Shown here: piece by piece, positions 6,810 to 56,656 of the stretch | Numbering within the stretch: position 1 is the stretch's first letter | Layout of the letters: the number at the start of each line of letters is the position of its first letter | Source of the DNA: Acidobacteria bacterium Mor1 | Lineage (GTDB): Bacteria; Acidobacteriota; Polarisedimenticolia; Polarisedimenticolales; Polarisedimenticolaceae | Assembly: GCA_001664505.1 (NCBI GenBank) | Contig: CP011806.1 | Location: forward strand, 3,473,385-3,537,384 | Reading direction: 5' to 3' | Length of the DNA stretch: 64,000 nucleotides | The notes under the pieces: generated by a model | What the model saw: only the letters and a program-made list of their open reading frames with translations | Database searches by the model: none | Told to the model about the DNA's origin: nothing | Program-made: the position numbers and the translations under genes

Positions 6810-6817
6810 CCGCGATC

Positions 6818-9312: not shown

Positions 9313-9314
9313 GG

Positions 9315-9649: not shown

Positions 9650-9650
9650 C

Positions 9651-10079: not shown

Positions 10080-10082
10080 GGT

Positions 10083-10513
10083 CTACTCAAAGGTGAATGT
10101 TAATGCGTTGCTTCCATCTTTCGCGCTTGCGAGTACGCCCAGGAGTGCCCGATGAGCATTTGCTGAAGAAGCTGCAACCTCTCGCCGCCCCCCCAACACC
10201 ACTTCGGGGCGCTCGATTGCAGCCCGCAAGAGATCTCGCACGTGATCCTTGTAATCCGTCACGAGCATCATCCTCTTTCCGAGTTCCTTGAGCCGAGATG
10301 TTCGCGCGACCGCCCGTAGCTCAACTCTCCCTCATGAAACTTCTCGATACACCAACCATCCTGCTGGCATAGAATCCAAACATCTGATTCCGTACTGAGA
10401 ATCGCCTCCCCGCATTGGCTGAGCGTGAAATACGGCACCCTCACCATTGGCCGAAGCGCATTGGTCCATAGCAGGGACAGCGTCGCTTGCGAGTCCGGGT
10501 TTTCAGAGAGCAA
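10083..10513 (-). pseudogene. Hypothetical gene split by a one-base frameshift
   Basis: Two short frames, one ending at 10268 and one covering 10083-10271, appear to be halves of one protein. Reading the second frame upstream of its first ATG gives a natural sequence (VELRAVARTSRLKELGKRMM) that joins the first frame at about 10310-10325, after IEKFHEG. The span is one base short of a multiple of three, so a single deletion, or a sequencing error, would explain it. A likely start is the TTG at 10513, with GAGGAG 5 bases upstream, right after the stop of the preceding gene at 10524; an ATG at 10615 would overlap that gene by 92 bases. Function unknown. Confidence 0.5.
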
Positions 10514-10523
10514 TAGGCTCTCC

Positions 10524-39971: not shown

Positions 39972-40060
39972 CGTGCCGGCTCCCGGATGGCGTGTCCTTC
40001 TAAAGACTAACGTCCGGGACCAGCACGGGCAAACGTGGCGGGCCGGGCGGGGCCGGGCGT

Positions 40061-41212
40061 CTAGTCGGGGGTGTAACGCACCGACAGGCCAGCTCGGTTC
40101 CGATGCCGCTCCAGCGCCAACCGGACGAGCCGGTCCAGGAGTTCCCCGTAGGATACCCCGCTTGCCTCCCAGAGTTTCGCGTACATGCTGATCGAGGTGA
40201 AGCCGGGAATGGTGTTGATCTCGTTGAGATCGATGCGGCCGCTCTGCCGGTCCAGCAGGAAGTCGACCCGGGCCATCCCGCTGCCCCCCACCGCCTTGAA
40301 GGCCTCGACCGCCAGGCTCTGGAGCTCGGCGGTTTGCCCGGGATCGAGCTCGGCGGGGATGACCAGCCGGGAGCTGTCCTCGAGGTACTTGGCCCGATAG
40401 TCGTAGAAGTCCCGCTCGGGAATGATCTCGCCGGGCACCGAGGCCTCGGGGATGTCGTTGCCCAGCACGCTGATCTCGATCTCCCGGGCGTCGACCCCCT
40501 TCTCCACCAGGACCAGGCGGTCGTAGCGCAGAGCCTCGTCGATCCCGGCCCGCAGCGATTCGGCATCGGTGGCCCGGGAGATGCCCACCGACGAGCCCAT
40601 GTTGGCCGGCTTGACGAAGACCTGGTTCCCCAGGGCTTCCAGCCGCTGCAGCACCGGCTCGGGGCCGGCCTCCCACTCCGCGGCCCGGACGACCATCCAG
40701 TCGACCACCGGCAGGCCGGCGCCCCGCAGCACCGTCTTGGTCAGGTGCTTGTCCATGCAGACCGCCGAGGCGGCCACGCCGCAGCCTACATAAGGAATGC
40801 CGAAGGTCTCGAGCATGCCTTGAAGGACGCCGTCTTCGCCGGTGGGGCCGTGAACCACCGGAAAGACCACGTCGAGCTGTTCGGGCACCCGGGGTTCGAG
40901 GGCCCCGGCGGCGGAGGTCAGGCCTCCGGCCTGGGCCGGGTCGGCGGACTGGGCCGCATCGGACTGGGCGGCCGCGGCCGCGGCCGCCGAGCCGTCGTCG
41001 GTCCCGGGCAGCCGGAAGGCCGCCGAGGCGTTGAGCAGATCCAGCGCGTCGGGACGGCAAATCCAGCGCCCCTCGGGCGAGATGCCAATCGGCAGCACCT
41101 CGTAGCCCTCGAGGCCGCGGAGCCCCTCGAGCACCGAAGCCGCCGAGGCCAGGGAGACTTCGTGCTCCCCCGACCGGCCGCCGAACATAACCCCGACCCG
41201 GATTTTCGTCAT
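40061..41212 (-). CDS. ddl: D-alanine--D-alanine ligase
   Basis: ATP-grasp enzyme joining two D-Ala residues for peptidoglycan; cytosolic. 383 residues, longer than the usual 300-370. Seen: N-terminal VGVMFGGRSGEHEVSLASA, HGPTGEDG (about 121-128), ATP-grasp core (QVFVKPANMGSSVGISRA, VLVEKGVDAREIEISVLG) and metal-binding GMARVDFLLDRQSGRIDLNE-INTIPGFTSISMYAKLWEA. An Ala-rich insertion (about 71-105, SAAAAAAAQSDAAQSADPAQ) is not part of the family core. The ATG at 41212 has no ribosome-binding site, but a TACTAT -10-like box lies 6 bases upstream, hinting at a leaderless mRNA. Confidence 0.95.
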   Translation of the reverse strand: MTKIRVGVMFGGRSGEHEVSLASAASVLEGLRGLEGYEVLPIGISPEGRWICRPDALDLLNASAAFRLPGTDDGSAAAAAAAQSDAAQSADPAQAGGLTSAAGALEPRVPEQLDVVFPVVHGPTGEDGVLQGMLETFGIPYVGCGVAASAVCMDKHLTKTVLRGAGLPVVDWMVVRAAEWEAGPEPVLQRLEALGNQVFVKPANMGSSVGISRATDAESLRAGIDEALRYDRLVLVEKGVDAREIEISVLGNDIPEASVPGEIIPERDFYDYRAKYLEDSSRLVIPAELDPGQTAELQSLAVEAFKAVGGSGMARVDFLLDRQSGRIDLNEINTIPGFTSISMYAKLWEASGVSYGELLDRLVRLALERHRNRAGLSVRYTPD

Positions 41213-41409
41213 GGAGGAATAGTACAGGACCCGGCGTGTAGGAGTAGCCGTGCCGGAAGCGAGATAGCAAGGGGCGGGAACCGAGGCCGCTCCGGCACCG
41301 TAAGCACTCATGGAGACCCCGTGAGAACCATCGAGACCGGCGGACAGACCACTCATTCGGCTGCCGGTGCCGTACGGCCGAAGCTCGAAACATCGCGGTG
41401 CTCCCCAGG

Positions 41410-41448
41410 TATAGTCCGATGACCGCTATCGGATACAGATAAGGAGGG
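41410..41448 (+). promoter_or_regulatory. Candidate -10 and ribosome-binding site of the transporter operon
   Basis: TATAGT at 41410-41415 is the best -10-like box in the 241-base gap before the ABC/RND operon; no matching -35 at 17 bases. AAGGAGGGGG directly before the ATG at 41454 is a very strong ribosome-binding site. Confidence 0.4.
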
Positions 41449-41453
41449 GGAAT

Positions 41454-42389
41454 ATGGCCACCGCCGTCGAATCACGGCCATCCGCATCCATTTCGATCAA
41501 GGGTCTGTCTCACCAATACAAGGGAGGCACCCGGGCCCTGGATCAGGTCGAACTGACGTTCGGCACCGGGCTGTTCGGGCTTCTGGGCCCCAACGGCGCC
41601 GGCAAGAGTACGTTGATGCGGATCATCTGCACGCTGCTCGTGCCCACCGCCGGCACCGTCACCGTGCGGGGCCACGACGTGGTCAAGGAGCGCAAGGCCG
41701 TCCGCGAGATCCTGGGCTACCTGCCCCAGGAGTTCGGCGGCTGGCGCCTGCACAAGGTCTCCGAGGTGCTCGACACCGTCGCTCGCCTGGCCGGCGACGG
41801 CAAGGACCGCAAGGCTCGCATCGCCAAGGTCCTCGAACAGGTCGGGCTCAGCGAGGTGGCCAACCGCAAGGTCAAGAAGCTCTCGGGCGGTATGCGCCGG
41901 CGGCTGGGCGTGGCCCAGGCGCTGATTCGCGACCCCGAAGTGCTGGTCGTCGACGAGCCGACCGTCGGCCTCGACCCCCAGGAGCGGCTGCGCTTCCGCC
42001 AGCTGATGGCAGACCTGGCCAAGGACCGCACGATCCTGCTCTCGACCCACATCGTCGCCGACCTCGGCTCCGCCTGCCGCGACATCGCGTTGATCGACGC
42101 CGGCAAGCTGGCCTTCCGCGGCAGCCCTGCGGATCTGGTGACGCAATCCAGGGGCAAGGTGTTCGAGGTATCGTTCCCCGCTGCCGCCCCCGAGGAGCTG
42201 GGCTCGGGAATCGAGATCGTCTCCCGCACACGTAACGCCGAAGGCACGTCGATCCGCGCCGTGACGACCAACCCGGACAAGCTGCCCGGCAGTCCCGTAG
42301 AGGTCGACAACCCCACACTGGAAGAAGCCTACCTGGCCTTCATGGCCGCCCGCGGCCGTGTTGACGCCGCCATCTCGGAGGAGCTCTAG
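41454..42389 (+). CDS. ABC transporter ATP-binding protein
   Basis: 311 residues. Walker A GPNGAGKST (about 45-53), Q-loop LPQEFGG, signature LSGGMRRRLGVAQ (about 144), Walker B VLVVDEP (about 164-170), D-loop GLDPQERLRFR and H-loop STHIV. It is the cytosolic motor for an ABC exporter; the partner is probably the next gene (abutting, TAG then ATG), a permease with extracellular domains. The C-terminal 80 residues (VFEVSFPAAAPEELGSGIEI) are the extra domain common in ABC-2-type exporters. First gene of the six-gene transporter operon. Confidence 0.95.
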   Translation: MATAVESRPSASISIKGLSHQYKGGTRALDQVELTFGTGLFGLLGPNGAGKSTLMRIICTLLVPTAGTVTVRGHDVVKERKAVREILGYLPQEFGGWRLHKVSEVLDTVARLAGDGKDRKARIAKVLEQVGLSEVANRKVKKLSGGMRRRLGVAQALIRDPEVLVVDEPTVGLDPQERLRFRQLMADLAKDRTILLSTHIVADLGSACRDIALIDAGKLAFRGSPADLVTQSRGKVFEVSFPAAAPEELGSGIEIVSRTRNAEGTSIRAVTTNPDKLPGSPVEVDNPTLEEAYLAFMAARGRVDAAISEEL

Positions 42390-45300
42390 ATGATTCGCCC
42401 CGGCATGGTGCTGGCCATCGCGGCCGCTGAATCACGCCTGACCCGACGCCTCGTGCGCTTCTGGATCTTCCAGGTCATCGCAATGCTCGCCGCGATCGCG
42501 TTCTCGGCCTACTACTCGGTGCTGCACCGGCAGTTCTCGTGGTTCTCGGGAACCATCGGCATGCTCAACCCCCGCTACCTGATCGGGTTCGTCGGGATCT
42601 ACTATCTCGTGCTCTTCCTCATCGGCCTGATTTTCCTCGGCTTCGACATACGTGCCCGGGATACACGCGAGCGGATGGACGAGGTGCTCGACTCATTGCC
42701 GATGACCAACGCCGAGCTGATGTGCGGCCGTTTTCTCGGCATTCTCTGGATGTCCTGGATTCCGGTCGTTCTCGCGGCCCTGATCATGTGGACCATCACC
42801 GCCATCGCCGGCAGCCCGGCGCAGCCGGTGTCCCTGATCAGCTTCGTCTTCATCCTCGCCATTCCGGCTTACACCCTGGCCCTCGGCCTGGTGTTCTTCC
42901 TGACCATGCTGGTCAAGCACCGGTTGGTCGCGGCGATCCTTTCGATCCTCATCGTCGGGGCCTTTGTCGTCAGCGGTTTCTACTTCGCGCCGATCTACGT
43001 GCTGCCGTTGCTGGACGTGACCGGCGGCTTCACCGTGCCCAACCCGTCGGACCTGGTGCCGACCCTGCTCGACGGGCGCACGATCGTGCAGCGGGTAGGC
43101 GCGATTCTCGCGGGCCTCGGCATGCTCTGGCTTGCCATCGGCCTGCATCCCCGGCGCGACGATTCGAACCGCGCGCTGACCTTCGGCCTCGGCGGCCTAA
43201 TGCTCGCCGTCGGCATCGGCCTCTGCGCGATGCAGGTCTGGCAGGCCAAAGGCATCATCGAGACCCGCAAGCAACTGGCCGATGTCCATCGTGCGCGGGC
43301 TGAAGAACCCGCGCCGGATGTGCAACGGATCACCGGGCGGGTCGACATCGGCAAGAGCGGTCTCGAGCTGAATCTCGCGATGACCGTGGCGGCGCCGGCC
43401 GAGTCCACACTGGACTCGGCACTCTTTTCGCTGAACCCGGGTATCGCCGTCGAGTCGATCTCTGCCGATGGGCAGAATCTAGGCTTCACCCACGACCAGG
43501 GGTTGCTCGAGGTCGAACTGCCCCGGAGCCTCTCCGGCGATGCGACATTGACCCTCGACATTGCGGCAGCCGGATATCCGCAGACCGAGTTCGCCTATCT
43601 CGACGGCGTGATCGAGCCGCTTGATGTCGACGTCAAGGATGCCAACCTGTTCCTGCTCGGATTCGAAACCCACTACCTGAACAAGTACTACGCGGCGCTG
43701 ATGCCCGGCGCGGTCTGGTTCCCGCGCAGCGGGCCCGCCACCGGTTCGCGGCAAGACTTCTTCGAGTTGGACCTCGAAGTCGGAGCCCCCGACGGCTGGT
43801 TGGTCGCCGGCCCCGGCAAGCGACAGGATGCGGGCAACGGTTTCCGCTTCGCGCCGCGCAGTCCGGTTCCCGAGTTCGCCCTGATGGCGGCGAAGTTCGC
43901 CGACCGCTCGATCGAGATCGACGGTGTGGAACTCGAACTTCTGGTGAGCCCCTCCCATGTGCGGAACCTCGATGTCTTCGAAGAGGCGGTCCCCCGCATC
44001 GAGGAGTGGGTCAGCAGCCGGCTGCAGGAAGCCGCCGACCACGGCGTCGCCTATCCCTACGACGGTTTGACCGTCGTCGAGGTCCCCAACGGCCTGCGCG
44101 GCTACGGAGGTGGCTGGCGGCACGAGTCGACGCTCGCCCAGCCGGGCATGATCCTGATGCGCGAGAGCGGATTCCCCACAGCCCGGTTCGACGTGGCCTT
44201 CGAGGAGGACCAAACCGAATCGATGGAAGACGATGACGGCGGTGTGCCCCAGGCACAGCTCGACGCGCTGCTGCGCTTCTTCGAGAACGACTTCAGTGGC
44301 GGCAACCCCTTCGTCGCGGCCTCCAAGAACTTCTTCTCCTACCAGACCGCAGGCACCGGCGAGTTCGGCCTCCCGATGAACTTCGTGCTGGACGACGTGT
44401 CGACCAAGCTCGTGACCGATCGGCAGGGCTACTTCTCGGTGCACCACTTCGGTGCCGAGATCGGACAGGTCGTGGGTGAGACGATTACCCGCGTCTTCGC
44501 CAATGACGAATCGGCGACCGACGCCATGATCGGAGCGGTCACCGCCCGCAGCGAGGTCTGGGACTCGACGTTGAACGTCAGCCTGGTCGACCTCGATCCC
44601 TGGGAGTCGCCGAAGCGCTCGCTGGACGTGCTGACCCTCAAGGGAGGCGCCATGGCGGACTCGCTGCTCGACGAACTCGGCCCGGCTCAGGTCGGGGAGC
44701 TGCTGGGTGCGCTACGCGAGCGCTATCCCGGCGACGTGTTCGAAGCGGACGACCTGGTCGCCGTTGGAGCGGAGATCGGCGTCGACATGCAGAGCTGGGT
44801 CGACGTCTGGCTCAACCAGACCCAGATCCCCGGCTTCACCCAGGGTACCGCGCGCTACATGCGGCTGGAAGATTCCGAGGACGGATCCCCCCGCTACCAG
44901 GTGCTCGTTCGCGTGCAAAACGACGAACCGATCGCGGGCCTGGTGAAGATCGACTATCGCATCGGCAAGGAGGACGACCAGGACCGCCCCCGTCAATCCT
45001 CGGATCCGGTCCGCATCGACGGCCTGGGAGCGGTCGAGATCGGCATCGTCGCCTCGGAGCCGATCCACAGCGTCCGGGTCGACCCCTACCTCTCACTCAA
45101 CCGGGAGCCGTTCCAGGTCAATCTCCCGTCCCTCGACGAGGAGAAGCTGGTAGACGCCGAGCCGGTGCTCGGGTTCCGGATCGTGGAACGGGACGCCGAT
45201 GACTCCGGCATCATCGTGGTGGACGACCTCGACGAAGGCTTCCGTGTGGTCGACGAACAGGGCACCAGCTTGCTGCGGGTCGGCGGCAAGCGTTCCACCG

Positions 45301-45746
45301 ACGTCGAGCTCGATCAGGGCTTGCCGGTTGCCCAGGCAGGTCAGACTCCGTCGGAATGGTCCCGCCGCGTATCCCGCACTTCGTGGGGCCGCTACCGGCA
45401 CACGACGGCACTGATCGGCAAGGGTTCAGGCAACAAGTTCGCCGTGTTCGAGGGGGATATCCCCAACGCCGGCCCGTGGGAGTTGCAAATCCACCTCCCC
45501 TCCGCACGCAATCCGAAGCGGCGCGGCGCATGGTCGCTGGTCGTCGAAGACAGTTCAGGAACGCGGGATGTCGATTTCGATGCCGCCGCAGGTGACGACG
45601 GCTGGAACTCCCTCGGCATCCACGAGCTCGCGGGCGGATCGGTGAAGGTGCGCCTGTCGAACGCCAATGAAGGTGGCCGCTATGTCGCCGCCGACGCAAT
45701 CCGCTGGATCCCCCAGACCAGCGGAGCCGGAAAGGACCGTAGCTGA
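42390..45746 (+). CDS. ABC-2-type permease fused to degenerate M1 peptidase and golvesin-like domain
   Basis: 1118 residues. Six or more membrane helices in the first ~290 residues (FWIFQVIAMLAAIAFSAYYS, YLIGFVGIYYLVLFLIGLIF, ILWMSWIPVVLAALIMWTIT, IPAYTLALGLVFFLTMLVKH, LVAAILSILIVGAFVVSGFY and others). Then a periplasmic region (about 320-850) related to M1 aminopeptidases (LDVFEEAVPRIEEWVSSRLQ, YPYDGLTVVEVPNGLRGYGG, STLAQPGMILMRESGFP) in which no HExxH zinc motif occurs (HHFGAEIG takes its place). A C-terminal golvesin/xly carbohydrate-binding-like domain (about 985-1110, ending YVAADAIRWIP) follows. M1-fused ABC permeases are known; this one is probably non-catalytic. Abuts the ATPase gene; its stop overlaps the adaptor ATG (TGATG). 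Confidence 0.85.
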   Translation: MIRPGMVLAIAAAESRLTRRLVRFWIFQVIAMLAAIAFSAYYSVLHRQFSWFSGTIGMLNPRYLIGFVGIYYLVLFLIGLIFLGFDIRARDTRERMDEVLDSLPMTNAELMCGRFLGILWMSWIPVVLAALIMWTITAIAGSPAQPVSLISFVFILAIPAYTLALGLVFFLTMLVKHRLVAAILSILIVGAFVVSGFYFAPIYVLPLLDVTGGFTVPNPSDLVPTLLDGRTIVQRVGAILAGLGMLWLAIGLHPRRDDSNRALTFGLGGLMLAVGIGLCAMQVWQAKGIIETRKQLADVHRARAEEPAPDVQRITGRVDIGKSGLELNLAMTVAAPAESTLDSALFSLNPGIAVESISADGQNLGFTHDQGLLEVELPRSLSGDATLTLDIAAAGYPQTEFAYLDGVIEPLDVDVKDANLFLLGFETHYLNKYYAALMPGAVWFPRSGPATGSRQDFFELDLEVGAPDGWLVAGPGKRQDAGNGFRFAPRSPVPEFALMAAKFADRSIEIDGVELELLVSPSHVRNLDVFEEAVPRIEEWVSSRLQEAADHGVAYPYDGLTVVEVPNGLRGYGGGWRHESTLAQPGMILMRESGFPTARFDVAFEEDQTESMEDDDGGVPQAQLDALLRFFENDFSGGNPFVAASKNFFSYQTAGTGEFGLPMNFVLDDVSTKLVTDRQGYFSVHHFGAEIGQVVGETITRVFANDESATDAMIGAVTARSEVWDSTLNVSLVDLDPWESPKRSLDVLTLKGGAMADSLLDELGPAQVGELLGALRERYPGDVFEADDLVAVGAEIGVDMQSWVDVWLNQTQIPGFTQGTARYMRLEDSEDGSPRYQVLVRVQNDEPIAGLVKIDYRIGKEDDQDRPRQSSDPVRIDGLGAVEIGIVASEPIHSVRVDPYLSLNREPFQVNLPSLDEEKLVDAEPVLGFRIVERDADDSGIIVVDDLDEGFRVVDEQGTSLLRVGGKRSTDVELDQGLPVAQAGQTPSEWSRRVSRTSWGRYRHTTALIGKGSGNKFAVFEGDIPNAGPWELQIHLPSARNPKRRGAWSLVVEDSSGTRDVDFDAAAGDDGWNSLGIHELAGGSVKVRLSNANEGGRYVAADAIRWIPQTSGAGKDRS

Positions 45747-46852
45747 TGCTCTGCTCTGTCAACGACCGCACTCGGCGGAGAACCTGGTTCGGGTGCGCGG
45801 CTCTGATCGCATTGGCTCTGGTCGGGGCCGGCTGTACGCCGCCCCCTGCCGAGGGGGAGATCGAGTTCAGCCCCGAGGTGTTCGTCGAGACCATCGGCAC
45901 CGGGGATGTCGAGGATCGGATCGTGTGCACCGGCACCCTCCGATCCCCCGAGACCTCCTCGCTTCGGGCCGATACGGCCGGCGCCCTGGCGATCGGTAGC
46001 GACTCGGCGGGCCGGCGCCTGGCCGAGGGATCGCGGGTTGAAGCCGGCCAGGTCATCGCCGAGATCACCGGCGAGGAGGTTCGGCTCGCGGCACGCACCG
46101 ACGCGACCCGGGAGCGCTACGAAACCTCCAAACGGGACTACGACTCGACCCGCAGCCTGCACGCCGACGGGTTGGTCAGTGATGCGGAACTGGCGTCCGC
46201 CGAGGCCAACGTCGCCGAGGCACGGGTCGAGTTGGAGCGTAGCCGTTTGACCGAAACCCGCTCGAAACTGACCACCCCGATCTCCGGCGTCATCATCTCG
46301 CTGGCTCGAGATGACCGGGGACGCCCGCTGCCCAACGGACAGCTGGTCGCCCAGGGCCAGGTCGTCGCGGAGATCGCACCGACCTCGCGCCTCATCGCCG
46401 ACGTCGACGTGGTCGGCCCCGACGTCGCCCGGATCACCCCGGGCCTGACAGCCCGCGTGCGGCATCACGCATGGGATGACGAGCGCTTCACCGGCCGCGT
46501 CAGCCGGCTGGCGCCGACCCTGGATCCGACCACGCGCACCCTGCGTGCCGAGGTCACGGTGAACAACGGGGGCGGCAAGCTTCGGCCCGGCATGTTCGTC
46601 GAAGCCACGGTGGTCGCCGAGAGACGCGAAGGGGTCGTCGTCGCGCCCCGACAAGCGGTGACCGAACGGCAGGGCCGCAAGGTGGTGTTCGTCATCCGCG
46701 GTCAGCGGGTCGAGAAGCGCGAGATCGCCCTCGGGCTCGGTGACGACGAGATCGTCGAGGTGCGCTCGGGTCTGGAAGCCGGAGAGCGGGTAGTGATTCG
46801 CGGCCTCGAGACCTTGACCGACAACAACAAAGTCAACGTGTCGGGAGACTGA
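45746..46852 (+). CDS. RND efflux adaptor lipoprotein (membrane-fusion protein)
   Basis: 368 residues. Lipoprotein signal ending LVGAGC (Cys30), then the adaptor architecture: beta-barrel strand IETIGTGDVEDRIVCTGTLR-like start, a biotinyl-lipoyl half (LAEGSRVEAGQVIAEITGEE), a coiled-coil hairpin (about 118-165, ESAEANVAEARVELERSR-type), second lipoyl half (LTTPISGVIISLARDDRG) and membrane-proximal domain (VVIRGLETLTDNNKVNV). It bridges an inner-membrane pump to an outer-membrane channel. It overlaps the permease gene (TGATG) and precedes the RND gene by 1 base. No outer-membrane TolC-type gene is in the window. Confidence 0.93.
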   Translation: MLCSVNDRTRRRTWFGCAALIALALVGAGCTPPPAEGEIEFSPEVFVETIGTGDVEDRIVCTGTLRSPETSSLRADTAGALAIGSDSAGRRLAEGSRVEAGQVIAEITGEEVRLAARTDATRERYETSKRDYDSTRSLHADGLVSDAELASAEANVAEARVELERSRLTETRSKLTTPISGVIISLARDDRGRPLPNGQLVAQGQVVAEIAPTSRLIADVDVVGPDVARITPGLTARVRHHAWDDERFTGRVSRLAPTLDPTTRTLRAEVTVNNGGGKLRPGMFVEATVVAERREGVVVAPRQAVTERQGRKVVFVIRGQRVEKREIALGLGDDEIVEVRSGLEAGERVVIRGLETLTDNNKVNVSGD

Positions 46853-46853
46853 G

Positions 46854-49800
46854 GTGGAATCGCTCGCGCGCCTGGCGACCCGCAGGCCGGTCGCCGTCGC
46901 GGTCATGGCCGCCACCCTGGTGATCCTCGGCTGGATCGCCTGGGGCAAGCTTCCGCTGGACATGCTCCCCGACCTGCAGTCGCCGACCGTCGTGGTCTCG
47001 GTGCGCTCGGGCGACCGCCCGCCCACGGAGATGGAACGGATCTACGGCGAGCAGATCGAACAACGGCTGTTCGCCGTCGGCGGCATTCGCGAGATTTCCC
47101 AGGTCGCGCGCACCGGACGCATCGTGGCCACGGTGGTGTTCTCCTGGGGCACCGACATGGATTTCGCGCTGGTCGAGGTGGAGAAGGCCGCCGGCCCGAT
47201 CCGCTCCGACCCCGACGTGGAAGACGTGTTGGTGCGGCGTTTCGACCCGCGTCAGGCGCCGGTACGAACCCTGGGACTGGTGGCCGAACCCGATGGACCC
47301 TCCCTCTCGGAGTTGCGGCGCGTGGCCGACCGTCAGGTCGCCACGGCCCTCGAACGTCTCGAAGGGGTAGCGGAAGCACGGGTCACCGGCGGCCGCGAGG
47401 AAGAGGTACGGGTCGAGGTCGACCCGTACAAACTCGAGTCCTTCGATCTCACCCTTTCGACCGTCGAGTCCCGCCTGTCCGCCGCGAACGTGGACATCAA
47501 CGCGGGCACCCTGGAAGACGGCGGCAAGGTCTACCTGGTCCGGGGTCTCGCACGCTACCGCACGCCCGAGGATATCGCCGACGTCGTGCTGCGCTACGGC
47601 GGCGATGGAGACGAGCGCTCGGCGATCCGGGTCGGCGACGTCGCCCGGGTGAGGCTGACCGACGCCGAGATCTCGCACCTGGTTCGTGTGGACGGCGGCG
47701 AGGGGGTCGGGCTCGCTGTCTACAAGGAGGCGGGGAGTAACACCGTGGCCGTGTCCCGGGCAGTCAGCGAAGCGCTGGAAGGCATCGCCGACGATCTACC
47801 CGGAATTCGCATCGTCGAGGTGGTCGACGACGCGGCGTTGGTCGAAGACTCCATCGCCGACGTCAAGGAAGCGGCGCTCATCGGCGTGGCTCTGGCCATG
47901 CTGGTCCTGGTGTTGTTCCTGCGTTCGCCCGGGCCCACCGCGATCGTCGCGACGGCGGTCCCGGTATCGCTGCTCACGACCCTGTTCCTGATGAACTTCG
48001 GCGATCGCAGCCTCAACATCATGACCCTCGGAGGGCTCGCCCTGGGCGCAGGCATGTTGGTGGACAACGCCATCGTCGTCGTCGAGAGTATCTTCCGCCG
48101 TCGGTCGGAGGGGTTGGACCTGGCCGAGGCGTCGGCCCGGGGAACCGCCGACGTGGCCGGCGCCATCGTCGCCAGCACCATGACCACCTGTGCCGTGTTC
48201 CTGCCGGTGGTCTTCGTCAAGGGCCTGGCGGCTCGGCTGATCGCCGGACTGTCCTTCACCGTGGTTGTCTCGCTCCTGGCGTCGCTGTTCGTCGCCATCT
48301 TCCTGATTCCGGCGTTGGCGAGTTGGCTCTTGCCCCGCGGACGCACCCGGGAGGCCGACCCGGGCGTCGGCAGAACCGAGAAACTCGTCGCCGTGCTCCT
48401 GAAGCAGCCGCTGCTGGTCAGCATCGCGGCGGTGTTGCTGGCAGGAAGCGCGGTCTGGTCCCTGTCGACCCTCGGTAGCGAACTGCTGCCCCCTTCGGAT
48501 CCCCGGCAGTTCTCGGTGAGAATGGTCGGTCCGGCAGGCCAGCGGGTCGAATCGACCGCCCAGGCGGTATCCACCGTCGAGCAGGTTCTGCGAGTCGCCG
48601 CGGGAGACCACCTCGAGGCGATGCTCTCGGAGGTGGGACGCATCCCGGAGGACGACCGCACGATCCGCGATGAGCAGACCGAGGAGAACACCGCGCGGAT
48701 CCTGGTGCGTCTGGCTGCCGGCGGACCGAGCGGGACCGCCATCGTCGAACGGGTGGCGCCGGTCGTCGCCGAGATGAGCGGTATCGAGGCCTCCTGGGAG
48801 GTCGGCGCGTCGGCGTTGTCCCAGGCGTTGGGCACCAGCGGCCCACCGATCGAGATCGAGATCGCCGGCCAGTCGCTGGAAAACCTCCGAAGCGGGGCGG
48901 CCGAGGTGCGGCAGGCACTGGCCGAGCGCGCTCAACTCTGGAACGTGCGTTCATCCTTCGAAGGCGGACCGCCGGAATTGCGGGTCCGCCTGGAGCAGAC
49001 CCTCGCCGACGGCCTCGGCATCGACATCGCGGCGGTCGGCGCCGCGATCGAGTCTTCGCTGGACGGACGCAAGGTCACCACCCTCGCGCTGGGCGACGAG
49101 GAGCGGGACGTGATGCTGCGCCTGCCGGGCGTTCGAATGGATGAGCTGCACCGGATTCCGATGACCACCAGCTCCGGCGCCCGTCTGGCCGTGGGCGACG
49201 TCGCGGTATTCGAGCACCACGAAGGCGCCCGGGAGGTCTTTCGGCGGGACCAACGCCGCATCGCCCTGGTGACGGCGCGCATTGCTCCCGGATACGAATA
49301 CCCCGAGGCCATGGCCGCGGCCCGGGAGGTACTCGCCGAGGTCGGCCTGCCGGGGATGCGCGCCGAGCTCACCGGTGAGGAAGAAGAACGGATCAAGACC
49401 TTCGGAGAACTGCAACTCGCCGGCATCCTGGCCATCGTCCTGTTGTTCATGGTGCTGGCCGGCACCTTCGAGTCGTTGATTCATCCGCTGACCGTGGTCA
49501 TGTCGGTTCCGCTGGCCTCGATCGGCGTCGCCGCCGTCCTCGTGCCCCGGGGATACCCCATCGGCGTGATGGAAGCGCTGGGCTTGATCGTGCTGGCCGG
49601 TGTCGCCGTCAACGACGCGATCCTGCTGGTCGGAACTGCCCGGCGATTGATGGGCGAGGGGCTCGAGCGGAATGCCGCCCTCGCCCGGGCCGCCGCGCTG
49701 CGGCTGCGCCCCATCCTGATGACCACGGCGACCACCGCGTTGGCCCTGATCCCCCTGGCCGTCGGCGCCAGTGAATCGGCACGGCTGCGTAGCCCGCTGG

Positions 49801-49907
49801 CGCTGACGATCATCGGCGGCATCGTCGCCTCCACCCTCGGCTGCCTGCTGGTGATTCCCTGCATCTACTCGGTGCTCGATCGCGTCGGGAGACTGGGTCG
49901 TCGATGA
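46854..49907 (+). CDS. RND efflux permease
   Basis: 1017 residues, AcrB/CusA-like proton-driven exporter. Shows the RND plan: TM1 (VAVAVMAATLVILGWIAWGK), porter half, TM block (ALIGVALAMLVLVLFLRSPG, NIMTLGGLALGAGMLVDNAI), second TM1-like segment (PLLVSIAAVLLAGSAVWSLS), second porter, second TM block ending IIGGIVASTLGCLLVIPCIY. The relay residues in TM4 are D404-N405 (LVDNAIVVVE) instead of the DD pair of AcrB; DN occurs in several RND groups. GTG start, 1 base after the adaptor stop. Overlaps the next RND-ABC gene by ATGA. Substrate cannot be told. Confidence 0.95.
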   Translation: MESLARLATRRPVAVAVMAATLVILGWIAWGKLPLDMLPDLQSPTVVVSVRSGDRPPTEMERIYGEQIEQRLFAVGGIREISQVARTGRIVATVVFSWGTDMDFALVEVEKAAGPIRSDPDVEDVLVRRFDPRQAPVRTLGLVAEPDGPSLSELRRVADRQVATALERLEGVAEARVTGGREEEVRVEVDPYKLESFDLTLSTVESRLSAANVDINAGTLEDGGKVYLVRGLARYRTPEDIADVVLRYGGDGDERSAIRVGDVARVRLTDAEISHLVRVDGGEGVGLAVYKEAGSNTVAVSRAVSEALEGIADDLPGIRIVEVVDDAALVEDSIADVKEAALIGVALAMLVLVLFLRSPGPTAIVATAVPVSLLTTLFLMNFGDRSLNIMTLGGLALGAGMLVDNAIVVVESIFRRRSEGLDLAEASARGTADVAGAIVASTMTTCAVFLPVVFVKGLAARLIAGLSFTVVVSLLASLFVAIFLIPALASWLLPRGRTREADPGVGRTEKLVAVLLKQPLLVSIAAVLLAGSAVWSLSTLGSELLPPSDPRQFSVRMVGPAGQRVESTAQAVSTVEQVLRVAAGDHLEAMLSEVGRIPEDDRTIRDEQTEENTARILVRLAAGGPSGTAIVERVAPVVAEMSGIEASWEVGASALSQALGTSGPPIEIEIAGQSLENLRSGAAEVRQALAERAQLWNVRSSFEGGPPELRVRLEQTLADGLGIDIAAVGAAIESSLDGRKVTTLALGDEERDVMLRLPGVRMDELHRIPMTTSSGARLAVGDVAVFEHHEGAREVFRRDQRRIALVTARIAPGYEYPEAMAAAREVLAEVGLPGMRAELTGEEEERIKTFGELQLAGILAIVLLFMVLAGTFESLIHPLTVVMSVPLASIGVAAVLVPRGYPIGVMEALGLIVLAGVAVNDAILLVGTARRLMGEGLERNAALARAAALRLRPILMTTATTALALIPLAVGASESARLRSPLALTIIGGIVASTLGCLLVIPCIYSVLDRVGRLGRR

Positions 49908-52900
49908 GCGGCGGGGTGCGGAACGACCTGTTTGCCATTCCGGTCCGGCGGCCGGTCGCGACGGCGATGTTCTTTCTGGGAATCGTGCTGCTGGGGCTGA
50001 TCGCCTGGCAGCGCATCCCGGTCAACCTGCTGCCCGACGTGGCGGGTGAACAGCTGTTCGTCACTTTTGCCCGGCCCGGTAGCGAACCGGAGGTCATCGA
50101 GCGGGAAATCCTGCTGCCGCTGGAGTCCCGGGCATCGCTGCTGGAAGGCCTGGACGAGACCCGGGCCACGATTCGAGGTTCCGGCGGCACTCTGACCCTC
50201 GAGTTCCGGCCGGGTACCGATCTGGCCGTACGCGAACTCGAGATGCGTCGGCTGGCGGCGGACCTGGTCCGCGAGCAACCTGCCGGCACGACGATCAACG
50301 TCAACAACTCCGACATCAGCCAGGCGGTCGGCTTCGCCATGTTCATCCAGGTCACCGGGATGGACGACCTGAACAGCCTGATGGACCTGGTCGACGATCA
50401 GGTCGTCCCTCGAATGGCGGCGGTCGACGGGGTCTCCCGGGTCAGCGCCGGAGGGGGAGCACCTCAGGAACTGACCGTGGAAATCGATCCCGACCGCTGC
50501 GCCGCTCTGGGCATCGAACCGGGGCAGGTCGTCTCATCGCTGTCACGTTCGGTCCAGCGCCTGGACTATCTGGGCGGCATCGAGGGCCGGGATCGCCGCA
50601 CTGCGGTCGTGCTTGACGGGCGGCCCCGGGGCATCGACACCCTCTCCCGAAGCCGCGTCGTCGCCGACCGGCCGGTGGAACTTCGCCACGTCGCCGATAT
50701 CGAGTTCGGCACGAGCGAGATGCAGACGCTGCTGCGGGTCAACGGGGAGCCGACGGTCGGCATCGTCGTCTTCCAGGACGAGGATGCGAACCTGATTCGC
50801 CTCGGCCGGGCGCTGCGCTCGCGACTCGACGAGCTCCGCGAAGAGTTCGCCCCCTACAACCTGGACTTCGTGATCAACTTCGATGCGGCGAAGGACCTGA
50901 TCGAGAAACAGCTGGACCGGCTCAAGGAGCTGGCGCTCACCGGGTTCGTCATCGCGCTGGTGGTGCTCTTCCTGTTCCTGCGCCAGTGGCGCGCCGTCGC
51001 GGTGGTTGCGGTAGCGGTGCCCACCAGCCTGCTGGCTGCCCTGGCCCTGCTCTATGTGGCCGGGCTCTCGCTCAATCTGATCACCCTGTTCGGGCTCGGC
51101 GTCGTGATCGGCGCCCTGGTCGACAACAGCATCGTCGTCTACGAGGCGGTGCAGCGCCAGCTGGAGCACGGCGCCCACGCCGACGATGCCGCCGCAGACG
51201 GCATCCGGCGCACGGTCCGGGCGATCCTCGCCGCCAGCGCGACCAACGCGGTGGTGTTCCTGCCGTTGATGTTCGCCGACTTCGCCGCCGCCGAACTTCG
51301 CGCCTATCTCGAGATCATGGCGCTGGCGATTCTGTTGCCGATGGTCGGATCGGTGTTGGTCGCCATCGGGCTCGTTCCGCTGCTGGCCCGTCGTCTCGCC
51401 GCCCCGGCTGCCCTTGCCCGGGTCAAGCGGGTGCGGGAGGAACGGCAACGCACCGGCGGGCTGAAACCGCCGGACCGGGCCGGTGAACTCTTCATCGGCA
51501 CGCTGATCGTGGCCCTCCGGCGACCGGGCATCTGGGTTACCGGCGTCGTCACGGCGCTGCTGATCACCGTCGTGTTCGTGCTACCGACCGTCGCGGTGAC
51601 CAGCTTGAATCAGGATCCTCCGCAGGAGGACACCGTGCGTCTGGCGGTGACCCTCGACTCGGCGGATTCCCTCGACCGTGCCTCGGAGCTTTTCGCGCTG
51701 CTGGAACAGGAAGTGATGAAGCTCGACGGCATCGAAGGGGTCGACAGCACCATCCAGGAAGAGAACGGGCAGCTGACGGTGCGGCTCCCCGACGCCGAGG
51801 ATCGCCCCGAGGGCCTGAACGCGGCCACGGTACGCGCCGCAGCCCGGCGGGTCGAGAGCCAGTCCAGAGGCGCCCTGGAACTGGATACGGTTCAGGATGG
51901 CTTCGGCGGTGGAGGTGGTCTGGCCGCCCTGACCGACACCAGTTCTACCGAGGTCTTGATCTCCGGACCGGAGACTCGCGGGCTCCTGTCGCTGGCAGGC
52001 GAGTTGGCCGGCCGGCTGGAGTCGATTGCCGAGATCGACACCGCACGGATCTCCTCCCGCTCGGCGCAAGACGAACTGCGTGTGGTCGCCGACGACATGG
52101 CGATGAACGCCTTCCGCCTGACCCCCGACCAGGTTCTCCCGGCGCTCAACACCGTGCGTCGTGAGGGAGTCGCCATGCAGGTCGGATTCACCCTGCCCGA
52201 CGGCCGGGAGATTCCGCTGACCGTACGCCGCCAGGCACCCCCACGCCGCGCGATCAAGGATCTCGAGCGTCTGCGGCTCAACACGAGTTCGGGAGTGCTG
52301 CCCCTGGAAGCGGTTGCCGACGTTCGACGAATGCCCCCGCCGCCGACGATCACCCATGAGAACGGCAGGCGCCAGGTCAAGGTCAGCTACACGCTGGGCC
52401 GCGAGGCGCCGACGACGGGGAACGCAAGACTCTCGCTGGACCGGCGGATCACCGACGCCGTCGGCGAGGTCTATCGCCCTGCGGGCTACACGATCGAGGT
52501 TCCCGACCCGGACGACTCCTACAGCTGGTTCCGCTCGCTGCTGATCCCGGTGCTGCTGCTGTTGTTCGCGGTGCTGGCCATCACCTTCGAATCGATGACC
52601 ATGCCGGTCCTGGTGCTCCTGTCCCTTCCCCTGACGGTGCTCGGTGCAACCTGGGCGCTACTGCTGGGGGACGTGCCAGGCCTGGACCCGATGGCGTTGA
52701 TGGGTGTGCTGGCCCTGATCGGCCTCACCGTCAATCCCGCGATCCTGCTGGTCGACCGGATGCAGGCACGGGTCCGGCTCAGCGGGTTCAGCGCCGGCGC
52801 TGCGGCCCTCGCGGCGGTGCGCGAGCGCACGCGTCCGGTCTTGATGACCACGGCGACGACCGTTGCCGGCCTGTGGCCGCTGGCCTTGAGCACCGGGCAG

Positions 52901-54691
52901 GCCAACGAACTGTGGCCTCCTTTCGCCACCGTGGTCATGGGCGGCCTGGTCACCTCTACCCTGCTGACCCTGCTCGTCATCCCGGTCGGCTTCGTCTTCC
53001 TTCATCGACTGGACGGCATCTTCGGCCGGCTGGGACCGTGGGTCGTCATTGGCTGGGCCGCGGCGGTCAGCCTGACGATGGTTCCGCTGATCCGCTACGA
53101 GATCATCCAGTCGACCACCTGGCAGATCATGACCACGTTGCTGGTCGGTTCCCTGTTCCTCGGGCTCGCAGCCCTCATCTTCCGGCGTGTGCCGTTGGTC
53201 GAACCGGCCACGGTGGGAGGAGCGCCGCCGACCCTCGAGGTGCGTTACCTGAACAAGGTCTACGGACGCCCCGGGCCGATCGGCCGGGCCTGGAGAGTTC
53301 AGGAGCGCTTCGCCAACGCGGTGCTGGCACGAGGCGGGCAGCCGTTCACTCCCGCCCGTGCCCGGGAACGATTGCTGCCGTTGCTGCTGTTGTTCCTCGG
53401 CGCCGGCTACCTGGCCTTCTCCGTCGGTGCCATCGGCTGGCGGCTTATCTTCGTTTTCGGCGCGGCCGCCCTTGCCGCCGGCTTCTGGCGCCAGGTCCGC
53501 TGTGCCCGGGGCCTGGCCGACGAACGCGGGCGGGTGCTCCCCGGCGGCGTGGAGAACCTGCTGGCGGTCGCCTGCCCCTGGATCGCACTGAGCCTGGTGC
53601 TGTTGCTCTGGACCCGGCTCGGATCCTTCGCCCAGGGCCTGCTGGAAAGCGCCGGCCGGAACGACCTTCGTCTCTGGGTCCCCGCCGTGATCGCGGTGAT
53701 CATCCTGATCGCTCAACTCGGACGGCGCACCGCCAAACGGCTGGCGCTGGGCACCCTGAGCGAATCGGTAACCGACGAGAGCTTCGCTGGTCTGCGCCGC
53801 AGCTGGCGCCGGCTCTCCCGCCGGGTCTTCGGGTTGGACTTGCCCCGCGAAGAGGTCCACGCCGTGCGCGGGGTGCACTTCACCGCCGAACGCGGAATGG
53901 TCGGCGTGCTGGGCCCCAACGGCGCCGGCAAGACGACGCTCTTGAGAACCATCGCCGGCATTTTGGATCCGACCGTCGGCGCCGTGCGCATCGGCGACGT
54001 GCCCCTCGATCATCTGCGCAAACGTCTCGCGCGCTACCAGGGCTACCTGCCGCAAGACTTCGGACTCCCCGGCGATCTGACCGCACGTGAGTACCTGGAG
54101 TACTACGCGCTGCTCTACGAGATCAAGCCGGCGGCCCACCGAGCCGAGCGCGTCGACCGACTGCTCAAGGAGGTCGGACTCGGCGAGAAGGCGGACTCCA
54201 AGATCGGCAGTTACTCGGGAGGTATGCGCCAGCGAGTCGCGGTAGCGCGCACCCTGCTGCGGCTGCCCCCGATCATCATCGTCGACGAACCGACCGTCGG
54301 ACTCGACCCCCGTGAACGGATTCGGTTCCGCAACCTGCTGTCCCGGCTGGCCGAAGGCCGGATCGTGTTGTTCTCGACCCACGTCGTCGAGGATGTGGCG
54401 GTCGCCTGTGAACGAGTGATCGTGATGGCCCGGGGCAAGATCGTGTTCGACGGAGTGCCCGACGACCTGCAGGACGAGGCGGTGGGCAAGGTCTGGGAGA
54501 TCACCCTGAACGAAGACATCCGCCCCGAGGTGCCCGAGGGAGCCATGGTCGTGGACGAGGTACCTGTAGGGGACGGACGGGTGCGCACCCGGGTGCTGCA
54601 CGACGTCCAACCTCACCCCGAAGCGGCCGCGGTCGATCCGGTGCTCGAAGACGGATACCTGTGGCTCGCCGGCGCGGGAGGTCCGCGATGA
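49904..54691 (+). CDS. RND permease fused to ABC ATPase (hybrid transporter)
   Basis: 1595 residues in one frame. Residues 1 to about 1050 are a complete RND permease: N-terminal TM1 (AMFFLGIVLLGLIAWQRIPV), relay D407-N408 (GALVDNSIVVYE), two porter halves and the final TM block (LTVNPAILLVDRM, VVMGGLVTSTLLTLLVIPVG). From about 1050 come two more helices, then PPTLEVRYLNKVYGRPGP (about 1109-1126), which resembles the first strand of an ABC nucleotide-binding domain, then about 190 residues with five or more membrane helices, and from about 1315 the rest of an ABC ATPase: Walker A GPNGAGKTT (1337-1344), Q-loop LPQDFG, signature YSGGMRQR (about 1437), Walker B IIIVDEP (about 1460), H-loop STHVV. 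All ABC motifs are intact. No frameshift or internal stop is seen, so the fusion is encoded as such. Overlaps by ATGA with both neighbours. Confidence 0.9.
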   Translation: MSGGVRNDLFAIPVRRPVATAMFFLGIVLLGLIAWQRIPVNLLPDVAGEQLFVTFARPGSEPEVIEREILLPLESRASLLEGLDETRATIRGSGGTLTLEFRPGTDLAVRELEMRRLAADLVREQPAGTTINVNNSDISQAVGFAMFIQVTGMDDLNSLMDLVDDQVVPRMAAVDGVSRVSAGGGAPQELTVEIDPDRCAALGIEPGQVVSSLSRSVQRLDYLGGIEGRDRRTAVVLDGRPRGIDTLSRSRVVADRPVELRHVADIEFGTSEMQTLLRVNGEPTVGIVVFQDEDANLIRLGRALRSRLDELREEFAPYNLDFVINFDAAKDLIEKQLDRLKELALTGFVIALVVLFLFLRQWRAVAVVAVAVPTSLLAALALLYVAGLSLNLITLFGLGVVIGALVDNSIVVYEAVQRQLEHGAHADDAAADGIRRTVRAILAASATNAVVFLPLMFADFAAAELRAYLEIMALAILLPMVGSVLVAIGLVPLLARRLAAPAALARVKRVREERQRTGGLKPPDRAGELFIGTLIVALRRPGIWVTGVVTALLITVVFVLPTVAVTSLNQDPPQEDTVRLAVTLDSADSLDRASELFALLEQEVMKLDGIEGVDSTIQEENGQLTVRLPDAEDRPEGLNAATVRAAARRVESQSRGALELDTVQDGFGGGGGLAALTDTSSTEVLISGPETRGLLSLAGELAGRLESIAEIDTARISSRSAQDELRVVADDMAMNAFRLTPDQVLPALNTVRREGVAMQVGFTLPDGREIPLTVRRQAPPRRAIKDLERLRLNTSSGVLPLEAVADVRRMPPPPTITHENGRRQVKVSYTLGREAPTTGNARLSLDRRITDAVGEVYRPAGYTIEVPDPDDSYSWFRSLLIPVLLLLFAVLAITFESMTMPVLVLLSLPLTVLGATWALLLGDVPGLDPMALMGVLALIGLTVNPAILLVDRMQARVRLSGFSAGAAALAAVRERTRPVLMTTATTVAGLWPLALSTGQANELWPPFATVVMGGLVTSTLLTLLVIPVGFVFLHRLDGIFGRLGPWVVIGWAAAVSLTMVPLIRYEIIQSTTWQIMTTLLVGSLFLGLAALIFRRVPLVEPATVGGAPPTLEVRYLNKVYGRPGPIGRAWRVQERFANAVLARGGQPFTPARARERLLPLLLLFLGAGYLAFSVGAIGWRLIFVFGAAALAAGFWRQVRCARGLADERGRVLPGGVENLLAVACPWIALSLVLLLWTRLGSFAQGLLESAGRNDLRLWVPAVIAVIILIAQLGRRTAKRLALGTLSESVTDESFAGLRRSWRRLSRRVFGLDLPREEVHAVRGVHFTAERGMVGVLGPNGAGKTTLLRTIAGILDPTVGAVRIGDVPLDHLRKRLARYQGYLPQDFGLPGDLTAREYLEYYALLYEIKPAAHRAERVDRLLKEVGLGEKADSKIGSYSGGMRQRVAVARTLLRLPPIIIVDEPTVGLDPRERIRFRNLLSRLAEGRIVLFSTHVVEDVAVACERVIVMARGKIVFDGVPDDLQDEAVGKVWEITLNEDIRPEVPEGAMVVDEVPVGDGRVRTRVLHDVQPHPEAAAVDPVLEDGYLWLAGAGGPR

Positions 54692-55395
54692 ACTTCGGAA
54701 CCCGGCTGCGCGACGGTATTCGGCTGATACACCTCTCGACGCGAATGGTCGCCGGACGCCGCTACTGGATCTGGCCGCTGGTGACGTTGATCTGGCCGCT
54801 GTTCCAGCTCTTCCGCGTCGTGATGGAGTGGCGCGAAGCGTTCGGCCCCGGCGATGCCCAGAACGCCCTGATCGGCATCCCGATGACCGTGCTCGGTCTG
54901 ATGCTCGGCATCCGGAGCATCGCCGGCGAGATCGATGCCCGTACCCTGGAGATTGCGTACACCGTTCCCGGTGGCGCCACTCGAGTCTGGACCGCCAAGT
55001 TGCTCGGCGGCCTCAGCCTCCTGCTCTTCTCGGAGTTCTTGTTGGCGGCCGTCAGCTACGTGTTCGCCACCTCTTTCCCGATCGGCGCGCTCTACGGCGC
55101 GCTACAGGGAGCCGTCGTCTACGCCGTGCTGGGAATGGGGCTCGCGACATTGCTGAAGAGCGAATCCGCGGGCGGCCTGATCGCCCTGGGCGTGCTGGCG
55201 TTCAACTTCCTGATCCAGGCCGGCAACGGACGGATCTCTCCGTTCTTCAACCCGACCCTCATGACCGACGCAGAGGTTCCCGAGGTTCTCGCCTGGACCG
55301 TACAGAACCGGATCGGGTTCGCCCTGATCGTCGCCGCGATAATCGCGCTGGCCTTCAGCCGCTCGGATCAGCGGGAGCGCATGCTCGGAACGTAG
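54688..55395 (+). CDS. ABC-2-type transporter permease
   Basis: 235 residues, six predicted helices: YWIWPLVTLIWPLFQLFRVV, IGIPMTVLGLMLGIRSIAGE, LGGLSLLLFSEFLLAAVSYV, AVVYAVLGMGLATLLKSESA, GLIALGVLAFNFLIQAGNG, IGFALIVAAIIALAFS. The cytoplasmic loop EIDARTLEIAYTVPGGATRV-WTAKL fits the ABC-2 coupling helix. ATG at 54688 overlaps the fused gene's stop (ATGA), with GGGAGG 6 bases upstream; an in-frame GTG at 54661 is less likely. Probably the membrane partner of the ATPase fused to the second RND pump. Confidence 0.88.
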   Translation: MNFGTRLRDGIRLIHLSTRMVAGRRYWIWPLVTLIWPLFQLFRVVMEWREAFGPGDAQNALIGIPMTVLGLMLGIRSIAGEIDARTLEIAYTVPGGATRVWTAKLLGGLSLLLFSEFLLAAVSYVFATSFPIGALYGALQGAVVYAVLGMGLATLLKSESAGGLIALGVLAFNFLIQAGNGRISPFFNPTLMTDAEVPEVLAWTVQNRIGFALIVAAIIALAFSRSDQRERMLGT

Positions 55396-55450
55396 TGGCC
55401 CCGGCCGCCTCCACGGCCGCCGTCGCGGCTTTCAACCCAACGACCGCCGC

Positions 55451-55822
55451 TCAGATCAACTGCACCAGCGTCAGCACGTTGTCGTCGGGGTCGTGGAAGT
55501 GAGCCAGGACGCCGCCCCAGGATTGCTCCACCGGCGAGCCGGTAAAGCGGACGCCGCGGCCGCGGAGTTCATCGTAGAACTCCTGCACGTTGCTGACCGA
55601 CAGGGATGCGCCCACGAAGCGGCCGACCAGATCCTCGGCCTCGGGGTTGTCGGGATTGACCGCCTCGACCACCAGCACCGCTTCGCCGACGGGGAAGACC
55701 GCGTATTGCTCTTCCATCTCGACCGCCGAGGGCCGCAGGCCGACCCGGGACGTGTAGAACGCCAGGGCTTTCTCGAAGTCTCGCGTGAATACGCGTACGG
55801 CTTGAAGCCGGTAGTCGGGCAC
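55451..55822 (-). CDS. VOC/glyoxalase-fold protein
   Basis: 123 residues of the vicinal-oxygen-chelate fold: YRLQAVRVFTRDFEKALAFY, VGLRPSAVEMEEQYAVFPVG, NVQEFYDELRGRGVRFTGSP and FHDPDDNVLTLVQLI. Members include glyoxalase I and dioxygenases; here the metal residues are not fully conserved (H in FHDP, E in VVVEAV), so function is open. GTG start at 55822 with AAGGAG upstream. Convergent with the transporter operon end; next upstream on this strand are the MBL and alcohol dehydrogenase genes. Confidence 0.88.
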   Translation of the reverse strand: MPDYRLQAVRVFTRDFEKALAFYTSRVGLRPSAVEMEEQYAVFPVGEAVLVVEAVNPDNPEAEDLVGRFVGASLSVSNVQEFYDELRGRGVRFTGSPVEQSWGGVLAHFHDPDDNVLTLVQLI

Positions 55823-55912
55823 GCCACCGCTCCTTCTTGCCTGGGGGCAGCTATATCGTAGCCTCCCCGCGCCAGCGGCGCCCTCCCGGGGCCGGGAGGA
55901 GGATTCGGGAGC

Positions 55913-56656
55913 CTAGGCGTCCTTGACCTGGGAGCCGGCGACGATGTCCAGCTTGTTGCCCTCGTCGAAGCGCACCCAGCACTTCGTGCCGCCGTCGTAG
56001 TCTCCCGCCCGCAACAGCAGGGTCGCCGGTTCGCCGAAGGCGGTGCAGCGCGTATCGGCAGTGGGATCGACGCCCCGCCAGACCCGGATGAAGGGGTTCT
56101 CCTCCCACTCCTCCTCGACGGTGGTCGGATCCATGTGCCCGGGATGGATGATCGTCTCCTTCTTGAACTTCATCAGCACTTCCATGATCGAGTGCTGGAT
56201 GTCCTCGAAGGTGGTGTGGCCGGGGCCGCGGGTGCCGCCGACGGTGCGGCGGAACAGGGTGTCGCCGGTGAACAGCCGCTCCTCGTTGATCAGGAAGGAG
56301 AGCTGGCCCAGGGTGTGCCCCGGACAGTGCACCGCGCGGATATGCAGGTCGCCGGCGCGGACCTCGTCGCCGTCCTTGAGTTCGACGTCGAGGCTCTGGA
56401 ACATCCCCGCCTCTTTGTGATGTCCGCAGATCGGGCAGCCGAACTTCGACTTGTACTCCTCGTTGTTGGAGACGTGGTCGATGTGATGATGGGTGCAGAG
56501 CACGTGGCTGACGGTCAGCCTGTGCTCCTCGATCGCCTCGACGATCGGCCCCATCGGCGCGCCGGTGTCGATGATCACCGCGTGGCCGCCCGGCTTGTCG
56601 CCGATCAGCCAGGTGTTCGACAGGTAGTCGTCGCTCATCGTCTTCTTGATGATCAT
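55913..56656 (-). CDS. MBL-fold hydrolase, glyoxalase II-like
   Basis: 247 residues with the metallo-beta-lactamase motif THHHIDH (about 54-60), VHCPGHTLGQLSFLI, FTGDTLFRR and IIHPGHMDPTT, the arrangement of hydroxyacylglutathione hydrolase and related thioesterases. A CPICGHH stretch (about 74-80) adds a CxxC-like element unusual for the family. It follows the alcohol dehydrogenase gene by about 96 bases on the same strand; with that gene it could form part of aldehyde/formaldehyde detoxification (hydrolysis of S-formyl or S-lactoyl thiols). This pairing is inference. Confidence 0.88.
   Translation of the reverse strand: MIIKKTMSDDYLSNTWLIGDKPGGHAVIIDTGAPMGPIVEAIEEHRLTVSHVLCTHHHIDHVSNNEEYKSKFGCPICGHHKEAGMFQSLDVELKDGDEVRAGDLHIRAVHCPGHTLGQLSFLINEERLFTGDTLFRRTVGGTRGPGHTTFEDIQHSIMEVLMKFKKETIIHPGHMDPTTVEEEWEENPFIRVWRGVDPTADTRCTAFGEPATLLLRAGDYDGGTKCWVRFDEGNKLDIVAGSQVKDA

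Follow-up and report, generated by a model that had tools for sequence, protein, structure and literature searches.

The 64,000 nt stretch of DNA analyzed here (referred to as the window) is part of a single 5.985-Mb contig of Acidobacteria bacterium Mor1, which lives in association with a cyanobacterium, Moorea producens JHB, and has a genome of 5.99 Mb and 66.8% GC (PMC5006271). The window carries an operon with the gene order ATPase A, permease A, membrane-fusion protein (MFP), RND1, RND2::ABC, and permease B, in which neighboring genes overlap or are separated by near-zero gaps:

41454..42389, + strand: ABC ATPase A, 311 aa, a free-standing nucleotide-binding domain (NBD) of the DrrA/GldA type (NCBIfam GldA/drrA matches)
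42390..45746, + strand: permease A, 1118 aa, ABC-2-like membrane domain, periplasmic pseudo-M1-aminopeptidase, and Golvesin_C (Pfam, AlphaFold2, Foldseek)
45746..46852, + strand: membrane-fusion (periplasmic adaptor) lipoprotein-like protein, 368 aa (HlyD_D23; TIGR01730 RND_mfp)
46854..49907, + strand: RND1, a free-standing RND permease, 1017 aa, TM4 VDN and TM10 VND (ACR_tran, E=1e-200)
49904..54691, + strand: RND2::ABC fusion, 1595 aa (ORF, Pfam, alignment of homologues)
54688..55395, + strand: permease B, ABC-2 type membrane protein, 235 aa from ATG (ABC2_membrane_2 at the cut-off)

The start of permease B overlaps the stop of the fusion by 4 bp. A scan of 40900-56200 yielded zero sigma-70 promoter sites and terminators at chance level. 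The operon is adjoined by a divergent gene with a trypsin-like protease domain (39009-41393, - strand), for which conservation together with the operon was not seen.

The ORF at 49904-54691 starts with ATG and has zero internal stops. The encoded protein consists of the following parts:

49937..53005, + strand: RND permease domain, residues 12-1034 (Pfam ACR_tran)
53036..53179, + strand: extra helices 13 and 14, residues 1045-1092 (helices of the AlphaFold2 model; hydropathy of the family alignment)
53234..53266, + strand: NBD strand 1 with the putative A-loop Tyr1120 (LEVRYLNKVY), residues 1111-1121 (aligned to strand 1 of ATPase A)
53267..53854, + strand: four-helix membrane insert within the NBD, residues 1122-1317 (hydropathy, AlphaFold2, alignment with ATPase A)
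53855..54688, + strand: remainder of the NBD with Walker A (GPNGAGKT, 1337-1344), Q1384, SGG (1438-1440), Walker B/E1462, and H1493 (Pfam, alignment, Foldseek)

The match to ACR_tran (E=7e-148) covers positions 4-1021 of the 1021 profile positions, and this profile together with hydropathy reveals two six-helix blocks and two porter domains, as in a full-length AcrB-type permease. ABC_tran matches residues 1323-1464 (E=1e-27). The ABC domain has an A-loop aromatic residue, Walker A, Q-loop, an LSGGQ-type signature, Walker B with the catalytic Glu, and H-loop. Our main set of homologues comprises 61 aligned full-length fusions (the window copy and 60 further ones), in all of which the catalytic motif positions that were checked are invariant, except for Thr/Ser at 1344. 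Overall, the ABC motifs are invariant or conservatively varied in the 61 sequences, and the same holds for distant members wherever these are covered. The Pfam domains and motifs thus bear out the initial description of this protein, made in a first-pass annotation from the sequence alone, as a complete RND permease and an intact ABC ATPase in a single chain.

The first-pass annotation had also reported extra membrane helices between the two domains. Such helices are present, but the alignment and the AlphaFold2 model resolve them into two plus four, and the last four are located inside the ABC domain rather than before it. After RND helix 12, the order of elements is two helices, strand 1 with the A-loop Tyr, the four-helix insert, strand 2, and the remainder of the NBD. 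Alignment of homologues with ATPase A places an insert of 186-194 aa between strand 1/A-loop and strand 2. The AlphaFold2 model of residues 1040-1595 (60 sequences, pLDDT 87) agrees exactly with this order, and the modelled NBD has Foldseek matches to TM_1403, NosF, FtsE, and LptB. The GldA profile begins at profile position 16 in the fusion but at position 2 in ATPase A, as is expected if strand 1 has been displaced by the insert. L1116, K1118, and Y1120 are invariant in 61/61 full-length fusions; judged from the alignment, Tyr1120 is the A-loop aromatic residue, and strand 1 of the fused NBD would pair within its sheet. The fusion shows that an ABC nucleotide-binding domain can accommodate a membrane domain and still retain its catalytic motifs. 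We know of no described ABC protein with such an arrangement.

The insert has zero Pfam family matches, and comparison of its profile with permease B gave no meaningful match; the idea that the six extra helices represent a hidden ABC-2 half was rejected on these grounds. Unfused ABC ATPases with the same insert were found neither in 396 genomes of the phylum nor in 369 genomes of the gammaproteobacterial class, every insert match in these genomes lying either within a long fused frame or at the end of a contig. For close pairs where dN/dS was computable, it is well below 1 over the linker helices and the insert; by this measure, both are under purifying selection.

In a set of 60 related genomes, the full-length fusions have sequence identities of 46-60% within the same family and class and of ~33% for another family of the phylum; two further families have members at 30-34% identity with the same layout and intact NBD motifs. 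The insert-region profile matched 34 of the 396 phylum genomes, in open frames that measure at least about 1600 aa wherever the end of a contig does not truncate them. A scan of GTDB species genomes returned 78 loci, 60 of which contain the whole fused ORF. The hosts belong to Acidobacteriota, Gammaproteobacteria, Bacteroidota (Bacteroides-named), Deltaproteobacteria, Myxococcota, and Neomarinimicrobiota MAGs. In the gammaproteobacterial class the gene is rare (2/369 genomes, centre genome included) and is fused in both cases. The tree of the 61 fusion proteins mostly follows the phyla, with a degree of mixing; plasmids gave no match to the insert. Most carriers are uncultured lineages (many Acidobacteriota, gammaproteobacterial MAGs), which may explain why the fusion has been missed.

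Homologues clearly encoded as two genes were found in no lineage. Short homologue frames are accounted for by contig ends, masked N, two apparent frameshifts, and one broken MAG copy. A stop or frameshift at the junction, or homologues invariably split into two genes, had been named in the first-pass annotation as what would undo the fusion; both are contradicted by the 60 other full-length fused ORFs, the fusions at 30-34% identity, and dN/dS below 1. A further record (L082; Moorena bouillonii PNG, NZ_MKZS01000001.1) carries at 6090-11037 a segment of 4,948 bp which is identical to 48600-53547 of the window. This segment has ~68% GC within a cyanobacterial record of ~45% GC and is flanked on one side by a run of 100 N; it is probably a contamination or a chimera in the public assembly. 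L082 is a separate assembly, and it reads through the RND-to-helix junction. Although only Illumina data went into the Mor1 assembly (PMC5006271), it is extremely improbable that RND2::ABC is an assembly or annotation artefact, given L082 and the occurrence of the other full-length fusions in independent genomes, chromosome-level records among them; conservation argues decisively against an artefact, and we consider the fusion to be real and conserved.

The partner genes are conserved to a high degree as well. In loci with enough flanking sequence, adjacency is retained for permease B in 53/54 cases, for RND1 in 47/53, for the MFP in 45/51, and for permease A in 39/50. The proposal from the initial annotation that the downstream gene (54688-55395) is a partner of the fusion has thus gained support: permease B is likely the ABC-2 permease of the fusion, as indicated by its adjacency and by ABC2_membrane_2, a Pfam family which is also matched by 10/28 permease B homologues. 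The fused NBD is therefore genetically linked to an ABC-2 membrane subunit, as in ABC-2 exporters. A second permease B paralogue is encoded ~1.3-1.5 kb downstream of the fusion in several (six) Acidobacteriota clusters. ATPase A shares 39% sequence identity with the fused NBD; in relatives, it is encoded upstream of permease A or elsewhere near it.

Co-occurrence extends to permease A: its profile matches 35 of the 396 phylum genomes, and the fusion-insert profile matches 34 of the same 35. In the 35th genome, RND1 runs to the contig end. With respect to exceptions from adjacency, RND1 is encoded elsewhere in the genome in 3/3 exception genomes searched, while in other exception genomes permease A is located elsewhere or on the opposite strand. 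A gamma clade has the two parts of the cluster at separate loci of one genome (L196 and L199 versus L117 and L120), with the break exactly between RND1 and RND2::ABC, the halves being ATPase A-permease A-MFP-RND1 and RND2::ABC-permease B; all parts searched for are still in the genome.

The MFP, which scores above the cut-off of TIGR01730, provides the operon with the adaptor of a tripartite efflux system. An outer-membrane factor (OEP, PF02321) is not encoded in or near the operons among the matches listed, but many are encoded elsewhere in each genome. A dedicated TolC was rejected on this basis. Cargo genes were sought in the neighborhoods and none was recognised, the sampled neighbors (including those of orphan permease A genes) being unrelated housekeeping or hypothetical genes.

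Permease A matches Golvesin_C in Pfam, and ABC2_membrane_3 below the threshold. Its AlphaFold2 model has a pLDDT of 83, and Foldseek matches the ectodomain to IRAP/ERAP1. The HEXXH motif is absent from the M1-like domain in 33/33 permease A homologues, and GAMEN is replaced, mostly by GGGWR; the one chance HEXXH in the set is located in the membrane part, outside the M1-like domain. The M1 fold is a conserved pseudo-enzyme without a zinc site, possibly serving as a cargo receptor. Some genomes in which one fusion was found encode two to about five permease A paralogues. This suggests exchangeable cargo receptors, and a fixed 1:1 unit need not hold. Orphan permease A paralogues were seen at 12 loci in five genomes, with unrelated neighbors. 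The hhalign comparison of permease A with permease B is weak (29% probability).

As for energization of the RND half, Asp407/Asn408 had been taken for the relay pair. The two residues are indeed present and are invariant in 61/61 full-length fusions, but alignment to solved pumps reveals that they do not constitute the AcrB relay D407/D408/K940: Asn replaces the AcrB-type D408, and the TM10 residue Lys940 corresponds to Asn944. Asn944-Pro945 is invariant in the 61 main-clade fusions; distant members have Asn-Asn. Ordinary RND proteins from the same genome also have a VDN/VNN type relay. The D-N/N relay thus represents an RND sub-type and is not proof of inactivity. Because the TM10 Lys is absent, proton coupling of RND2 is uncertain. 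At the corresponding TM10 position, RND1 (46854-49907) carries Asn-Asp and main-clade RND2 carries Asn-Pro; such complementary changes could point to unequal roles of the two proteins in proton coupling.

Our proposal, with a probability of about 0.5, is a hybrid envelope exporter that has the product of this gene at its core: an ABC-2 pump would be tethered to a heteromeric RND pump, to which it would hand over cargo. The fused NBD would pair with the free ATPase A, and permease B with permease A, to form one ABC-2 exporter. RND2 and RND1 would form a heterotrimer in the manner of MdtB2C1, a heterotrimer having been described for MdtBC (PMC8277102). With one RND2 per trimer, each RND trimer would carry a single fused NBD and, accordingly, a single ABC exporter, which would explain why two RND proteins, two ATPases, and two permeases have been retained. 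The ABC part would use ATP to translocate cargo across the inner membrane or to extract it from there, the pseudo-peptidase domain would bind it in the periplasm, and the RND-adaptor part would export it via a shared outer-membrane channel whose gene lies elsewhere. The membrane insert may anchor the NBD beside the RND part. Counting against the proposal are the missing TM10 Lys of RND2, the permease A paralogues, the weak hhalign match between the two permeases, and the lack of a nearby outer-membrane factor among the matches listed and of a recognised cargo gene in the sampled neighborhoods. The first-pass annotation had envisaged either a dual-energised transporter or two pumps coupled in a fixed ratio. 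The former stays hypothetical, the RND half having Asp407 but a non-canonical relay. The latter is compatible with the data but incomplete, as it does not account for the additional RND protein, ABC ATPase, and ABC-2 permease, the last of which is fused to a pseudo-peptidase. With these extra components in the operon, we are probably dealing with a heteromeric machine of larger size.

The alternative which survives best is that two independent transporters have been joined just for equal expression or localisation, the link having no mechanistic role. In its favor, fused proteins often arise in operons, and the 4-bp overlaps already couple the translation of neighboring genes. We consider this explanation unlikely, since all lineages found retain the fusion, the linker helices, and the NBD insert with no clear split, even though the remainder of the cluster has come apart in one gamma clade, and since the linker is under purifying selection. 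Somewhat less likely still is a truly dual-energised pump, in which ATP hydrolysis by the NBD drives or gates RND cycling and a separate ABC substrate path does not exist. The NBD and the RND permease share one chain and could be coupled by the membrane insert, and the loss of the TM10 Lys together with the gain of Pro945 in the main clade would fit a reduced proton dependence. However, Asp407 is invariant, relays of the same type occur in ordinary RND proteins, and an ATP-driven RND would not need the two ABC-2 permease genes and the second ATPase, all of which are retained; it is mainly the retention of the permeases that makes an RND pump without ABC transport less likely. Slightly lower yet we rank an ABC half that acts as an ATP-driven mechanical device (mechanotransmission as in MacB, FtsEX, or LolCDE), the pseudo-M1/Golvesin part pushing or extracting a lipoprotein, a peptide, or similar cargo for the RND pump. 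Such a device would fit the large periplasmic binding-type ectodomain of permease A with its dead peptidase site and the resemblance of the NBD to exporters with R-domains such as NosF, but the membrane domains look ABC-2/NosY-like, not MacB/FtsX-like.

We thus prefer the hybrid envelope exporter. Its boldest form is more tentative than the proposal as such: an RND trimer powered by protons and an ABC-2 exporter powered by ATP may constitute one obligate machine, which shares a polypeptide, has an NBD-embedded membrane domain, uses its energy sources in series on one cargo, and would be a new transporter class. RND and ABC pumps are regarded as alternative ways of energizing export across the envelope. 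A conserved chain with both engines, accompanied by fixed RND and ABC partners across phyla, offers a natural system for testing their coupling.

When compared to known systems, the solved chains closest to RND2 are those of MdtABC-TolC and HAE-type RND pumps (MdtB, AcrB, MexB, AdeB). RND1 and RND2 are full ACR_tran proteins like these, and the operon combines two RND genes with an adaptor, as does mdtABC. In contrast to these pumps, RND2 carries C-terminal helices and an ABC NBD, has a D-N/N instead of a D-D/K relay, and has obligate ABC partners; a TolC gene is not nearby among the matches listed. ABC-2 exporters of the NosFY, DrrAB, or GldA type resemble the ABC part in NBD sequence and fold and in having a separate small ABC-2 permease next door, but here the NBD is fused to an RND permease, and a membrane insert of four helices interrupts it between A-loop and Walker A. 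MacAB-TolC likewise has an ATP-driven inner-membrane part working with an HlyD/RND-type adaptor; the present system lacks a MacB/FtsX fold and unites ABC and RND in a fusion. With ABC permeases that are annotated as carrying an M1 aminopeptidase, permease A shares a membrane domain followed by an M1-fold ectodomain; unlike these, it has lost the active site, has gained Golvesin_C, and is a near-obligate partner of the RND::ABC fusion. SecDF is a precedent for an RND protein that works with an ATP-driven export step (PMC8277102), but there the proteins are separate, SecA is not an ABC ATPase, and there is no tripartite adaptor. None of the best-matching solved structures has both RND and ABC domains. 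The initial statement that an RND-ABC fusion has not been described is consistent with the open-licence PMC literature, where we found no example, although absence there is not proof. Each part of the system belongs to a known family, whereas we know of no earlier case of the combination or of a membrane insert within the NBD, and there is a real chance that they define a new class.
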